This document shows, piece by piece, positions 173 through 5,738 of a DNA stretch of 5,738 bases (within the stretch, counting starts at the first letter, position 1; each line of letters starts with the position of its first letter). The stretch is taken from NCBI GenBank assembly GCA_001871015.1, contig MNUO01000003.1, forward strand, positions 1 to 5,738, written 5' to 3'. The notes below the pieces were generated by a model. That model saw only the letters and a program-made list of their open reading frames with translations. It had not been told where the DNA came from and made no database searches. A program made the position numbers and the translations under genes. The DNA is from Candidatus Desantisbacteria bacterium CG1_02_38_46 (GTDB taxonomy: Bacteria > Desantisbacteria > UBA1551 > UBA1559).

Positions 173-224
173 TCATTTTGACATTTTATCGACATGTCCC
201 ACGAGAAACAAGCTTTGCTTATTT
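173..224 (-). repeat. 3'-end hairpin repeat, copy A (nucleotidyltransferase gene end)
   Basis: On the plus strand the blocks TCATTTTGAC (173-182), CCCACGA (198-204) and CGAGAAACAAG (202-212) occur in this order, then GCTT/AAGC arms around TTT (210-220). On the minus strand this reads AATAAGC-AAA-GCTTGTTTCTCGTGGG, with the TAA being the gene's stop. There is no U-run after it, so it is not an ordinary intrinsic terminator. Confidence 0.55.
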
Positions 225-959
225 TTTATGCCTTAACATTTCAAGTTCTTTCCTTAACAGTTCCCAGTATTTTCTATCTTTTTCTCTTTCTAACAATTCC
301 TCATTCTGTAATAGTTTTTCTAATTTCGGAATATCTTTTTTAAATGCTACTTTCAGAAGTGGTCTTTTTATAGAACATTCCTTTGCCAGATCTATATTTT
401 TTCTTGCTAACTCAATTAATTTACTACTGCTTCGACATTCATATAACCACCACTTAATTTTTTCTAAAGAAAGTTTTCGGGTTGTAAATATATCATTTTC
501 TATTAAACGATTGAGCATTAACCAATCCTTGTCTCTCTGTGTCTTTTTACTCTGGGCAAGGTCTTGTAGCCCGATAATTTCAATTGTTCTATTACGGGAA
601 AATCTTACCGAAAATCTTCTTTCCCATAACTTCTGAAAATCATCACAACCCCTGAGTTTTGAAATAACATCAACCCTGAGATTTTTCACAGATTTATCAT
701 AACATCTAAAATGACAGGCATGTCCTTTCTCAAGAAATTCTTTTTTTAATGGTGGCAGATAAATATTTCTTGCTTTAAGAAAACGAAGTGCCTTTTTCAG
801 TTTAGCAAGATTTTCAGAATTACAAAAAATGACAAAATCAGAATCTCTGCTAAACTCTGCGGCGCCGTAAATGATGCACGCCTGCCCTCCGATTAGAAGA
901 CTTTTTACCCCGAATTTCTGGAAAGTAAAAAGGACTTTGAGGATCGGGTTCTGGACCAA
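219..959 (-). CDS. Nucleotidyltransferase-fold protein (pol-beta/AbiEii-like superfamily)
   Basis: A protein of 246 residues from TTG 959. The N-terminal domain has the minimal nucleotidyltransferase signature: GGQA at 24-27, SRDSD with metal-binding Asp39 and Asp41, and a third acidic residue Asp97 in RVDVIS. Other family-like stretches are EKGHACHFRC (77-86), KLWERR (110-115) and KKTQRDKDW (138-146). The C-terminal third is helical and highly charged, ending in REKDRKYWELLRKELEMLRH, probably coiled coil. The family transfers a nucleotide to a protein, RNA or small molecule; the target is unknown, and a toxin role as in AbiEii or MNT systems is only a possibility. The start is inferred: GGAGG at 965-969 lies 5 bases before TTG 959. 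An in-frame TTG at 971 would add four residues but has only a distant GGAAG. The gene overlaps the small upstream gene by 110 bases. All three acidic residues are present, so it looks active. Confidence 0.85.
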   Translation of the reverse strand: MVQNPILKVLFTFQKFGVKSLLIGGQACIIYGAAEFSRDSDFVIFCNSENLAKLKKALRFLKARNIYLPPLKKEFLEKGHACHFRCYDKSVKNLRVDVISKLRGCDDFQKLWERRFSVRFSRNRTIEIIGLQDLAQSKKTQRDKDWLMLNRLIENDIFTTRKLSLEKIKWWLYECRSSSKLIELARKNIDLAKECSIKRPLLKVAFKKDIPKLEKLLQNEELLEREKDRKYWELLRKELEMLRHKK

Positions 960-1068
960 GGTCGCCTCCAAGAGATAAATATAACTTCCACAATTTAGTT
1001 GATTCCTTCAATCTCTGCACTGGACTCAATTTTAACCATGCCTGCTCTTCATTAAAATATTTTTTCAT
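850..1068 (-). CDS. Small protein upstream of and overlapping a nucleotidyltransferase
   Basis: A 72-residue frame with a strong start: AGGAG at 1077-1081, 8 bases before ATG 1068. The N-terminal half looks like a real helical protein (EEQAWLKLSPVQRLKESTKLWKLYLSLGG), followed by GPEPDPQSPFYFPE, a segment I associate with small proteins found beside this type of nucleotidyltransferase (from memory, not searched). The last 26 or so residues are very basic, ending in LRRRRV, and are encoded over the beginning of the next gene in another frame. Function is unknown; a partner or regulator of the nucleotidyltransferase, possibly antitoxin-like, is only an inference from adjacency. The alternative is that translation of biological relevance ends elsewhere and the basic tail is a by-product of the overlap. 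It is the first gene of a two-gene unit. Confidence 0.65.
   Translation of the reverse strand: MKKYFNEEQAWLKLSPVQRLKESTKLWKLYLSLGGDLGPEPDPQSPFYFPEIRGKKSSNRRAGVHHLRRRRV
965..969 (-). promoter_or_regulatory. Shine-Dalgarno GGAGG for the nucleotidyltransferase, inside the small upstream gene
   Basis: GGAGG on the minus strand, 5 bases before TTG 959, is formed by the two glycine codons (GGAGGC) of the LGGDL segment of the overlapping small protein. It decides the start of the nucleotidyltransferase and implies translation from within the upstream coding sequence. Confidence 0.65.
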
Positions 1069-1811: not shown

Positions 1812-1844
1812 TAATCATCCGATAATCATCCGATAATCATCCGA
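1812..1844. repeat. Three perfect copies of an 11-bp tandem repeat
   Basis: TAATCATCCGA repeated at 1812-1822, 1823-1833 and 1834-1844. The stop codon (TGA 1826-1828) and last residues (MIIG) of the AlbA pseudogene are encoded in it. Because 11 is not a multiple of 3, a change in copy number would change the C-terminus. Confidence 0.9.
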
Positions 1845-2298
1845 TAGAAAACTCCTCTGCCACGCCCTTTTCTTTCAACAACTCCTTTTTTAATAAGTTC
1901 TCTCAGGTCCCGATGGGATGTATCCCATCCCACACCACAGAGATTACGATATTCACGGTTGGTAATCCTTCCTCTTTCTCTAAGGTAATCAACTGCCTTT
2001 CGTTGACGCTCATTTAAATTCAGATTTAATAAATCAATTTTCTTATGAACAACATTTTCTAATTTGCTAATTTTTGCAGCATAAAGAGTTACCTTCACTC
2101 CCCCGAGAATTCCTTCAAACTTTGGAAATTTAGGCTTGAGGGGATGGTTCTGAAACTGCTCCCGGATAATGTGCATTCCGTCTCCATAGCCTTCTACGTA
2201 TCCATATCCATAAAGTGCCTTCATTATGTTAGGATTGCGGTGGACGGGCATTGTCCTTCACCTTTATGAGTGAGTTTTTTAAATTCCTCAGGAGTCAT
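1826..2298 (-). pseudogene. Decayed AlbA/Schlafen-type ATP-binding regulator (RecG-like) with internal deletion and frameshift
   Basis: The larger open piece (ATG 2251 to TGA 1826, 141 codons) is the C-terminal part of the AlbA-2/HATPase regulator family. RNPNIMKALYGYGYVEGYGDG (from residue 5) is the conserved end of the HATPase_c_4 region, and residues about 78-138 form a winged helix (LNERQRKAVDYL, ITNREY, a recognition helix near 108-121, then GRGRGVFY as the wing). Just upstream, ATG 2298 starts MTPEEFKKLTHKGEG, a typical first stretch of the AlbA domain, in a different frame that ends at 2224. Members of this family are usually several hundred residues, so roughly 300 codons are missing at the join near 2251-2256, together with a frame change. 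A start at ATG 2251 (preceded by GAAGG, very close) could still express a winged-helix fragment, so residual function is possible. The end of the frame lies in an 11-bp tandem repeat. Confidence 0.75.
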
Positions 2299-2481: not shown

Positions 2482-2545
2482 CGCTACATTATGCAGAGCA
2501 AGCTCTGCCACTACCATTTCGCAGAGTAAACTCTGCCACTACATC
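2482..2545 (-). repeat. Second modular palindromic repeat cluster, overlapping the flavoprotein stop codon
   Basis: Read on the minus strand: linker GATGTAGTG, stem GCAGAGT-TT-ACTCTGC (2521-2536), linker ATGGTAGTG, stem GCAGAGC-TT-GCTCTGC (2493-2508), linker AATGTAGCG, then GTGCGACCCCCC. Stems are 7-bp perfect with TT loops; linkers start every 27-28 bases. The single difference between the two stems is paired (C-G versus T-A), so symmetry is kept. The linker at 2537-2545 contains the TAG stop of the flavoprotein gene. Same design as 54-120. Confidence 0.75.
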
Positions 2546-3108
2546 TTCAACAATTTTGCTCCGAAGGAAAAAGCTTCTTTTAAGGCAGCGGGATGCTTAG
2601 TAATTGCATCCTTCTCATCTATTTGTGAAAAAAATAATTCAGCAACATAAGATACTTCAAGGGTTTTGAAAAATGCTTTTATGGTTAATGATGCTGCGGG
2701 AAAAAAATCTGTTTTCTTTCCGCCGCAAACAGATATAAATGCGCCCTTTCGATTTGGTTTATCTGATATGGGTTGTTTCAGAATATATTTTTTTACCCAC
2801 AGGCACTGGCAGCGGTCAATTATTGCCTTGAGGTTTGCGGTTATGCTCCCAAAGAAAATCGGCGAGGCAATAACAATACCTTCCGCATTCTGTAATTTGG
2901 GATACAGGGTCTGCATATCATCATCAACTACACATTTTCCTGTTTCATCACACCCGCCGCATTCCCTGCAAGGATTGATTTTTAAATCAGAAATAAAAAT
3001 AAATTCAGTTTCATCTCCATTAGTTTTAGCTCCATCGAGAACCTTTTGGAGAAGTAGAAAAGTATTCCCGTCGCGCCTCGGACTTCCTGCTATTCCAAGT
3101 ATCTTCAT
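2539..3108 (-). CDS. Iron-sulfur flavoprotein, NAD(P)H-dependent FMN reductase fold
   Basis: A 189-residue soluble flavodoxin-like protein. The N-terminal beta strand and loop MKILGIAGSPRRDGNT (1-16) form the FMN phosphate-binding site. SPIFFGSITANLKAIIDR (82-99) is the second FMN-contact segment of this family. Between them is a compact cysteine motif CRECGGCDETGKC (Cys47, 50, 53, 59; C-x2-C-x2-C-x5-C), the spacing described for 4Fe-4S iron-sulfur flavoproteins (Isf) of anaerobes, which pass electrons from ferredoxin-type donors and may reduce oxygen or peroxide. Substrate and partner cannot be read from sequence. The ATG at 3108 begins right at the FMN motif and has only a weak GGA 6 bases upstream. 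The TAG stop (2539-2541) lies in the linker of a palindromic repeat array, so the last codons (KM-stop) may be repeat-derived. The gene is 52 bases downstream of nrdJ and could be read through from it, as no clear terminator is seen between. Confidence 0.92.
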   Translation of the reverse strand: MKILGIAGSPRRDGNTFLLLQKVLDGAKTNGDETEFIFISDLKINPCRECGGCDETGKCVVDDDMQTLYPKLQNAEGIVIASPIFFGSITANLKAIIDRCQCLWVKKYILKQPISDKPNRKGAFISVCGGKKTDFFPAASLTIKAFFKTLEVSYVAELFFSQIDEKDAITKHPAALKEAFSFGAKLLKM

Positions 3109-3160: not shown

Positions 3161-5290
3161 TTAAAATGGGCAGATTGTCGCAGGACATCCGCCAGCATAT
3201 TCGGCATCTGCGCTAACATGCTCTTCGCCAGTTGAATCTCTGGAGTAGATACCGAGATATAGAACCTGCTGACTTTTGCTTCCATACCTGTATACAGTAA
3301 CTCCCTTGCATTTCAGTTTGAAAGACAAAAGAAAAATGTTTCGCACATCGTCAGGACTCGCCTCACTATGCAGATTAACAGTCTTTGATACAGCATTATC
3401 TACATATTTCTGAAATGCTGCCTGCATTTGTACATGCCATTTCGGCTCTATGTCCATCGCTGTGACAAAAAGCCTGCGAATATCCTGAGGAACTCCTTCA
3501 ATTTCCTGGACCGAACCTTTGCGTGCAATTTCACCCATCAATTCCTTGCTATAAAAACCCCTCTTGCGGGCAATCTCCTCAAATAATGGATTCACCTCTA
3601 ACAACCTCATACCCTCCATAATATTACGCCCGTATGAAATAGCAAATAATGGCTCAATACCCGAGGAACATCCGGCAATTATACTTATTGAACCTGTTGG
3701 TGCTATGGTGGTCAATGTGGCATTGCGCATCTGCCTGTAATCTTTTTTCTTCCATATACTGCCTGGAAAATTAGGAAATGACCCTCTTTCATCAGCCAAT
3801 TGCTGGGATTTATTTCTTGCCTCTTCTCTAATAAATTTCATCAACTTTCTAGCTGTAGAAATTGCCTCCTCTGAATCATAGGGAATTCCCAACTTGATAA
3901 GTGTTTCAGCGAAACCCATTATTCCCAGTCCGATCTTCCGATTAGCTTTTGTAATTTTTTCAATTTGAGGGAGAGGAAATTTGTTTGCATCAATAACATT
4001 ATCCAGGAAGTGAACACAGAGATGGACTAATTTTTTCAATTTTTCCCAGTTTAACTTTCCATCTTCAACTATTTTTGCCAGATTTATTGAGCCAAGATTA
4101 CATGATTCATAGGGCAAAAGAGTCTGTTCACCGCAGGGATTAGTAGATTCTATCAGCCCGGCACCCGGAGTGGGATTGTGACGATTAATCTCATCAATAA
4201 AAAGTAAACCCGGATCACCTATCCTCCAGGCCATGTTAACTATTAAGTCAAAAAGGCTTCGCGCTGGCAACTCCCTCACAACTCTTCCATTGCGAGGATT
4301 TATCAATTGATGAGTTTCACCTCTTTCAACTGCTGTCATAAATCTATTTGTAACCGCTACAGAGAGGTTGAAGTTATTAAGAACATTCTCTTTCCCTTTG
4401 GCTGAGATGAAATCAATTATATCGGGATGCTCAACGCAAAGAACGCCCATATTTGCACCCCGTCTTCTGCCGCCCTGCTTGACTACATCAGTAGCTGTGT
4501 CAAAAATGCGCATAAACGAGATGGGTCCTGAGGCAACACCTCTTGTAGATTGGACAATATCGCCTGCTGGACGCAGCCGTGAAAAGGAAAAACCTGTGCC
4601 ACCGCCTGACTGATGAATTAAAGCCATTTCTTTCGCTGCCTGGAATATTCCTTCTATAGAATCCTCAACTGGAAGTACAAAACAAGCAGACAGTTGCCCC
4701 AGCGTGGTCCCCGCATTCATCAATGTGGGAGAATTGGGAAGAAACTCCATGTTTGACATTGATTTATAAAACTCGTCTTCTAATTTATGCACATCAGAAC
4801 CGCGAGCATATATTTTCTCCACTTCTGCAATCGCCCTTGCAACACGATGAAACATTTGTGTCGGGGTTTCCAGAACATTTCTGCGATTATCTCGCAATAG
4901 ATACCTTCTTTTGAGGACCTGGATGGCATTTACAGAAAGTTTCAAATCATCTGTAACTCCAATGACCTGTTTTGCCTCCCTGAGTTCGTTGCGTCGGTAT
5001 CGGTAAAGGATGTAGGACTTAGCCACCTCAGGATATCCATGCCTGATGAGAACTTTCTCCACGATGTCCTGTATATCTTCCACTGTAGGAACCTTCATTT
5101 GCACGGCCTTCTCGGGTAAAATGGAACACTGCTCCATAAGAGAAATTACTTCCAGAGCAAGGTCCTTTGCCAATCTGGCATCACCACTGCCCTGTGAAGA
5201 AAATGCTTTGAAGATAGCTGCCGCTATCTTGGTTGGTTCAAACCTTACAGTTGACCCGTCACGCTTGGAAATTTTCTCAATTTTTATCAT
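3161..5290 (-). CDS. nrdJ: Adenosylcobalamin-dependent (class II) ribonucleotide reductase
   Basis: A 709-residue enzyme that reduces ribonucleotides to deoxyribonucleotides using a thiyl radical generated from adenosylcobalamin; cytoplasmic and oxygen-independent. Residues 1-105 are an ATP-cone allosteric domain (KRDGSTVRFEPTKIAAAI). The catalytic barrel follows: NSPTLMNAG at 186-194, redox Cys203 in LSACF, GGGTGFSFS at 229-237, and NPCGE at 384-388 with the probable radical Cys386 and Glu388. ESCNLGSINL follows with partner Cys397, then PTGSIS at 531-536. The C-terminus ends in a cysteine pair, Cys702 and Cys707 (CPATIC), the expected shuttle that re-reduces the active site. No class I radical subunit or class III glycine-radical motif is visible, which supports class II. 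The ATG at 5290 overlaps the upstream stop by 4 bases (ATGA), so translation is probably coupled. Only a weak GGA precedes it. The gene appears full length and intact; B12 dependence is inferred from family resemblance. Confidence 0.96.
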   Translation of the reverse strand: MIKIEKISKRDGSTVRFEPTKIAAAIFKAFSSQGSGDARLAKDLALEVISLMEQCSILPEKAVQMKVPTVEDIQDIVEKVLIRHGYPEVAKSYILYRYRRNELREAKQVIGVTDDLKLSVNAIQVLKRRYLLRDNRRNVLETPTQMFHRVARAIAEVEKIYARGSDVHKLEDEFYKSMSNMEFLPNSPTLMNAGTTLGQLSACFVLPVEDSIEGIFQAAKEMALIHQSGGGTGFSFSRLRPAGDIVQSTRGVASGPISFMRIFDTATDVVKQGGRRRGANMGVLCVEHPDIIDFISAKGKENVLNNFNLSVAVTNRFMTAVERGETHQLINPRNGRVVRELPARSLFDLIVNMAWRIGDPGLLFIDEINRHNPTPGAGLIESTNPCGEQTLLPYESCNLGSINLAKIVEDGKLNWEKLKKLVHLCVHFLDNVIDANKFPLPQIEKITKANRKIGLGIMGFAETLIKLGIPYDSEEAISTARKLMKFIREEARNKSQQLADERGSFPNFPGSIWKKKDYRQMRNATLTTIAPTGSISIIAGCSSGIEPLFAISYGRNIMEGMRLLEVNPLFEEIARKRGFYSKELMGEIARKGSVQEIEGVPQDIRRLFVTAMDIEPKWHVQMQAAFQKYVDNAVSKTVNLHSEASPDDVRNIFLLSFKLKCKGVTVYRYGSKSQQVLYLGIYSRDSTGEEHVSADAEYAGGCPATICPF

Positions 5291-5738
5291 ACAAGTTCCA
5301 CATCTGCTCCTACCACTCCAGGAATTCCCTCTATGCGCTCTTTAACAGATTTCACGATGTATCCCATCAAAGGACAATGCGGGGTAGTCAGAGTCATTTT
5401 CACCCTGACAAAATCCCCTTTTTCCTGCTTGATTATCTCTACATCTTTGATTAATCCCATATCAACTATGCTTATCCCGAGTTCAGGATCCGCCACATCT
5501 CTCAATGATTCAATAACATTTTCTCTGCTCAGCGGCCCTTTTCCCGCAGGTTTCATATGCATTTTGAACCATGCAATAGTGCGGGCAAGACCATCTTCAA
5601 TTCCAATTTTGGGCTCCCACTGCAAAAACTGTTTAGCTTTGGAAATATCCGGCTGTCTCTTACGTGGATCATCTTTTGGCAGAGGAAGATATGTAATCTC
5701 ACTCGAGATACCAGTAATTTTTAGAATAAGTTTCGCAA
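5287..5738 (-). CDS. Partial SDR (UDP-glucuronate decarboxylase-like) C-terminus fused in frame to a MIP18/DUF59 domain
   Basis: The frame is open from the window edge (first full codon at 5736) to TGA at 5287-5289, 149 visible codons. Residues 1-58 match the C-terminal tail of NAD-dependent UDP-glucuronate decarboxylase/UDP-sugar epimerases: LPLPKDDPRKRQPDI at 17-31, where the family has a DDPxxRxPDI substrate-binding signature, then WEPKIGIEDGLARTIAWF, the usual last helix. Residues about 69-149 form a complete MIP18/PaaD-like domain, with DPE at 83-85 and TTPHCP holding the conserved Cys121. That family acts in iron-sulfur cluster assembly or transfer. No stop separates the two parts. Internal ATGs at 5562 and 5556 (residues 59 and 61) could start a separate MIP18 protein, but neither has a recognisable Shine-Dalgarno. 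The stop overlaps the nrdJ start as ATGA. The domain calls are firm. Whether one fused polypeptide is made is inferred from the uninterrupted frame. The decarboxylase identity is by motif, and a related epimerase is possible. Confidence 0.8.
   Translation of the reverse strand, partial: AKLILKITGISSEITYLPLPKDDPRKRQPDISKAKQFLQWEPKIGIEDGLARTIAWFKMHMKPAGKGPLSRENVIESLRDVADPELGISIVDMGLIKDVEIIKQEKGDFVRVKMTLTTPHCPLMGYIVKSVKERIEGIPGVVGADVELV

Follow-up and report, generated by a model that had tools for sequence, protein, structure and literature searches.

An in-frame fusion of a UDP-glucuronate decarboxylase-type protein with a MIP18/DUF59 domain in two Candidatus Desantisbacteria genomes

The window, by which is meant the whole stretch of DNA analysed (5,738 nucleotides), is the entire contig C24 of the 133-contig draft genome of Candidatus Desantisbacteria bacterium CG1_02_38_46 (87.8% complete). 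At one end of it a minus-strand frame of 149 amino acids (5736-5287) enters open from the contig end and closes with a TGA stop at 5289-5287, and in this frame the tail of an SDR enzyme runs into a MIP18 domain with no stop and no frameshift between them. The sequence-only reading had placed an in-frame fusion at 5287-5738; its coordinates were right, the frame is open and both domains are confirmed. A search of the window's own genome identified a second contig, C84, which carries the same first 92 residues as the window ORF and whose first 280 bases are identical to the final 280 of the window, this overlap spanning the junction. The upstream extension suggested as a check is thus supplied by C84, and the two contigs joined give a single uninterrupted ORF of 397 amino acids that begins at a GTG codon, with AGGAGG ahead of it. 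A domain search, also suggested, returned PF01883 over the C-terminal part and UDP-glucuronate decarboxylase (UDP-xylose synthase, UXS) over the N-terminal part, so that the full protein possesses a complete UXS (about residues 1-309) followed, after a short linker, by an equally complete MIP18/DUF59 domain (317-397). The features of the locus are as follows.

Contig C84 (L111:3-1022), minus strand: 5′ part of the UXS::MIP18 gene from the same genome, residues 1-248, GTG start
5287 to 5738, minus strand: 3′ part of the UXS::MIP18 gene, residues 249-397 and stop TGA, from the open frame
5548 to 5736, minus strand: C-terminal part of the UXS domain, residues 249-311, with final helix TIAWFKMHMKP, from alignment and the match to human UXS1
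5533 to 5550, minus strand: linker PAGKGP, about residues 311-316, from low pLDDT in the model and sequence difference
5290 to 5532, minus strand: MIP18/DUF59 domain (FeS_assembly_P, PF01883), residues 317-397, from Pfam, alignment and structural matches
3161 to 5290, minus strand: nrdJ, adenosylcobalamin-dependent (class II) ribonucleotide reductase with ATP-cone, from Pfam and NCBIfam
2539 to 3108, minus strand: NADPH-dependent FMN reductase family protein (PF03358), in the same order in the relative

The remainder of the window has further ORFs. That at 1826-2251 (minus strand) resembles the C-terminal end alone (HATPase_c_4 and winged helix) of RecG-like/AlbA_2 regulators, and since the stretch from there to the FMN reductase at 2539 does not contain its N-terminal part, it is probably a decayed remnant. 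The minus-strand ORF at 1152-1760 codes for a secreted TlpA/AhpC-TSA-like thioredoxin-fold protein with a signal-peptide-like N-terminus. The ORF at 219-971 (minus strand, 250 amino acids) has no Pfam match and by eye resembles a protein of the nucleotidyltransferase type (GGQACIIYGAAEFSRDSDFVI); its 5′ part seems to have been displaced into a shorter ORF that overlaps it (850-1068).

The same fusion, as a protein of 398 amino acids, is present on a single 36-kb contig (L002) of Candidatus Desantisbacteria CG1_02_49_89, the nearest relative among the genomes covered, which belongs to the same order and to another family. Looking for the fusion in related genomes had been proposed from the sequence alone, as had the counter-case in which every close relative would carry the two genes separately; this relative does not bear it out. 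Gene order is common to both genomes, namely metG, ugd, UXS::MIP18, nrdJ and the FMN reductase. The ugd gene directly upstream of the fusion, itself preceded by metG, codes for a UDP-glucose 6-dehydrogenase (nucleotide sugar dehydrogenase subfamily), an enzyme that makes the substrate of UXS. In the window, the ATG of nrdJ overlaps the TGA of the fused gene (ATGA, the overlap reading TGTATGATAAAA). The two genes of the relative are instead separated by 177 bases that contain hairpin-like repeats (L002:4454-4630).

The two fusion proteins share 296 identical residues (75% protein identity), with synonymous differences at saturation (pS 0.86) against a nonsynonymous pN of 0.145, the latter being 0.15 for the UXS part, 0.13 for the junction and 0.13 for the MIP18 part. 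Judged from these substitutions, both halves and the junction are under purifying selection since the split of the two lineages, which are the two genomes making up the sample of the phylum. As the fusion occurs in both at saturated synonymous divergence, a recent loss of a stop codon is excluded, and any such loss would be old because it predates the split.

A query spanning the junction was searched against 386 genomes around the lineage of the window, 385 around genome G094 (largely the same ones) and 82 of another phylum, amounting to roughly 470 distinct genomes. Both domains were matched in the two Desantisbacteria genomes only, all others matching one half. The one candidate match spanning a stop, in G266, was considered as a precursor of the fusion and rejected, as it belongs to an ordinary operon of the suf type in which SufT adjoins SufD and SufU, and not UXS; in G348, a 403-amino-acid open frame with a MIP18 match covers the MIP18 part of the query alone. 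Among relatives fetched from contigs of GTDB species and from viral contigs, no other ORF with both domains was found, these fetches being based on short peptide patterns which a very divergent fusion could escape; the viral contigs had UXS relatives alone and none with both domains. Within the literature covered, no paper on such a UXS-MIP18 fusion was found.

The N-terminal domain appears to be an intact UDP-glucuronate decarboxylase that would convert UDP-GlcA to UDP-xylose. It is a full-length extended-SDR domain with the NAD-binding and catalytic motifs of the family (GxxGFxGSH, STSE and YxxxK followed by R), which both fusions carry as GGAGFIGSH, STSE and YDEAKR and which are conserved in the family alignment too. 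With phmmer, the protein of the relative matches human UXS1 (4gll/2b69) over residues 2-309 with an E-value of 1.5e-103, the next family following at 2.5e-38, which makes UXS1 the closest solved structure, and Foldseek matches 2b69 with an E-value of 1.7e-43. The assignment of the tail to the C-terminus of a UDP-glucuronate decarboxylase-like enzyme, first made by eye, is borne out, the motif of the tail being DDPRKRQPDI...LQWEPK. In the alignment, stand-alone UXS proteins end at about the position of residue 311 of the fusion.

The C-terminal domain, by its motifs, is likewise an intact domain of the MIP18/SufT type, and its activity would be that of the family. The PF01883 match covers residues 71-146 of the window ORF and the whole profile (1-73 of 73) with an E-value of 1.6e-18 and 67.2 bits against a cut-off of 23.5. 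The DPELG motif lies at about 5476-5490 and the codon of the conserved cysteine (T-x-x-C-P) at 5374-5376; this residue, Cys369, occurs in both fusions, as does D-P-E-x-G, and the D, T, P and C are invariant in the MIP18 alignment. The Gly of D-[LM]-G-L, a near-invariant residue, is replaced by Glu in the relative, and both fused domains are without the W-x-P-P-W tail found in many SufT proteins. A separate AF2 model of the MIP18 domain (18 sequences, pLDDT 87) is better than the corresponding part of the full-fusion model, and its top PDB matches are the DUF59/SufT structures 3cq1, 1uwd, 3lno and 5ird. Whole-domain score, T-x-x-C-P cysteine and predicted fold all place the domain in MIP18. The SUF_assoc model TIGR02945 scores 67.7 bits for the window and 70.2 for the relative against an equivalog cut-off of 143.4 bits, and for this reason the domain is assigned to MIP18 by family and is not filed as SufT. 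As an aside, the Thermus DUF59 structures 2cu6, 3cq1 and 3cq2 are named "dTDP-4-keto-L-rhamnose reductase-related" in the PDB, a name that may go back to an early annotation in which DUF59 was connected with a nucleotide-sugar SDR; a literature search on this link returned nothing useful.

The AF2 model of the whole fusion of the relative has two folded domains with a mean pLDDT of 88, its MIP18 part being based on only two sequences. When stand-alone MIP18 proteins were aligned jointly with the fusion they were placed wrongly on the N-terminus, and this alignment was left out of the folding. The sole segment with pLDDT below 50 is residues 311-314, and here the sequences of window and relative differ while the flanks are conserved. 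Of the linker originally read as KMHMKPAGKGP, a short linker stands, but KMHM is part of the last UXS helix and the linker proper is confined to about residues 311-316.

With regard to Fe-S metabolism, the fusion is the sole PF01883 match in each of the two genomes, both being draft metagenome assemblies (88% and approximately 93% complete) from which a second MIP18 gene could be missing, while 13 of 14 control genomes score above the cut-off. SufB/D (PF01458) had no match in either genome and is present in all 14 controls. A NifU_N/IscU-type scaffold is encoded in both; in one of them (G001) a cysteine desulfurase adjoins iscU, and the other (G000) has a separate Mrp-like ATPase of 258 amino acids, with no strong Mrp match found in the draft of G001. 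Fe-S assembly in the two genomes seems to rest on IscS/IscU-type proteins.

Taken together, the fusion is real and lineage-restricted, and it is probable that the locus encodes a single bifunctional protein whose tail is most likely SufT-like and not coupled to UXS. The suggestion of an unusual bifunctional protein, made from the sequence alone, gains support from the same fusion in a second family and from purifying selection throughout; both activities, the tethering on a dimer and the absence of functional coupling are what we infer from these data. The fusion probably arose by loss of the stop codon between two neighbouring operon genes in an ancestor of the lineage, and its fixation may be due to the free C-terminus of UXS, where an added domain is tolerated. 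The UXS half would act after the adjacent UDP-glucose 6-dehydrogenase, with the MIP18 half hung on its short flexible linker and riding on the UXS dimer. UXS enzymes are dimers, and the fusion could thus hold two MIP18 domains close together. As the tail is the sole MIP18 domain detected in these genomes, it most likely keeps the general job of SufT, aiding the IscS/IscU pathway (and Mrp/ApbC where present) and contributing to the maturation of Fe-S proteins through its conserved cysteine, and no chemical link between the two activities would be required. Work in S. aureus and M. tuberculosis assigns DUF59 proteins to the maturation of Fe-S proteins, and the SufT of M. tuberculosis forms homodimers (PMC4982691, PMC9045647).

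Several other readings were weighed against that of an uncoupled bifunctional protein. It is unlikely that the domains are coupled, with the tail sensing iron or redox state by way of a reactive cysteine or an Fe-S cluster and tuning UXS and the supply of UDP-xylose, or else targeting the protein, and the narrower proposal that nucleotide-sugar output is tied to Fe-S, iron or redox state by a MIP18 sensor or switch on UXS has a slimmer chance. Regulation of UXS by iron or redox state is not known, the model has a flexible linker and no docked regulatory domain (a monomer model would miss contacts in the dimer), and the presence of a sole MIP18 domain in the genome favours a general role. What speaks for coupling is the retention of the fusion over a large divergence with both halves constrained, the description of MIP18 cysteines as hyper-reactive and the fusion of DUF59 to a metabolic enzyme in at least one case (CysE, the S9 architecture; PMC4982691).

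Production of free MIP18 from the fused gene, as an additional or main product, through an internal start or through proteolysis of the linker is similarly improbable. In-frame ATG codons at positions 307 and 309 lie at the domain border in both genomes and the linker is predicted to be flexible; methionine, however, has one codon only, so the conservation of these ATGs proves nothing, and the codons 5′ of them vary freely at synonymous positions. Neither genome has a Shine-Dalgarno sequence at ATG307 or ATG309, the anti-SD duplex energies before them (about -2.7 and -5.6 kcal/mol) being near the in-gene means of -3.9 and -4.5 kcal/mol and far from those of the true starts (-10.2 and -9.5 kcal/mol). 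For want of a ribosome-binding site, internal initiation at these codons finds no support, and neither does the alternative in the sequence-only reading of a lost SDR stop and a MIP18 domain also made from internal ATGs.

That the tail serves the adjacent ribonucleotide reductase or another operon partner, and not the cell at large, is very improbable, as adenosylcobalamin-dependent class II enzymes such as this neighbour have no Fe-S cluster and the two genes of the relative stand apart. The position of nrdJ next to the fusion in both genomes, with overlap in the window, would fit such a role, as would the occurrence of sufT beside the gene for the anaerobic ribonucleotide reductase activase in some lactobacilli (PMC4982691). 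Finally, a chimeric assembly, or a stop of UXS lost recently and by accident in a single strain, to which a frame cut by the contig end and a draft of many contigs might point, can be dismissed, since two contigs of the same genome share the junction (the exact 280-bp overlap) and the fusion recurs, at saturated synonymous divergence, on the 36-kb contig of an independent genome from another family, which likewise excludes the assembly join once suspected near 5560.

MIP18 domains are widespread, but their bacterial role is ill-defined. In the present lineage, where SufB/D is not detectable, the one MIP18 domain detected is kept covalently attached, as a tail, to a metabolic enzyme to which it is unrelated. 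Such an arrangement naturally tests whether a MIP18 protein depends on a suf operon, on a free N-terminus or on a P-loop partner. It is also a warning that the Rosetta-stone rule, by which function is transferred from one fused partner to the other, should not be applied unchecked, and UXS::MIP18 may be entered by automatic annotation under either half alone. Were the MIP18 tail a switch on UXS, cell-envelope sugar synthesis would be under a kind of control so far undescribed for it.

In comparison with known systems, the N-terminal half resembles human UXS1 (2b69, 4gll) as a full-length domain of the same fold (TM-score of 0.96 over the target), with the family motifs retained and a UDP-glucose dehydrogenase gene adjoining; it differs from stand-alone UXS proteins, which end where the fusion goes on into the linker and an 81-residue MIP18 domain. 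The C-terminal half shares the DPE-G-SIVD motif, T-x-x-C-P and the predicted fold with SufT/DUF59 proteins such as TM0487 (1uwd), Rv1466 (5ird) and those of Bacillus (3lno) and Thermus (3cq1). Unlike these, it is neither free nor in a suf operon, sits in a genome without SufBD, lacks the C-terminal W-x-P-P-W extension and scores under the SUF_assoc cut-off. The protein does not belong with Mrp/ApbC proteins having an N-terminal MIP18 domain, its partner being an SDR and not a P-loop NTPase. As in the known DUF59 fusions (Mrp/ApbC, HCF101, U-type scaffold, Rieske, PqqD, DUF1858, CysE, Nfu::SufT), DUF59 here forms part of a longer polypeptide. The partners recorded in a survey of DUF59 architectures are U-type scaffolds, Rieske, PaaJ/acetyltransferase, P-loop NTPase, DUF1858, PqqD and, in one case, CysE; an Nfu fusion is mentioned as well, and fusions of this kind, once formed, are reported to be largely retained, while none listed has an SDR or nucleotide-sugar enzyme (PMC4982691). 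UXS::MIP18 is thus a conserved and apparently undescribed architecture built from two known families, in which the partner is new and the habit of fusing is known.
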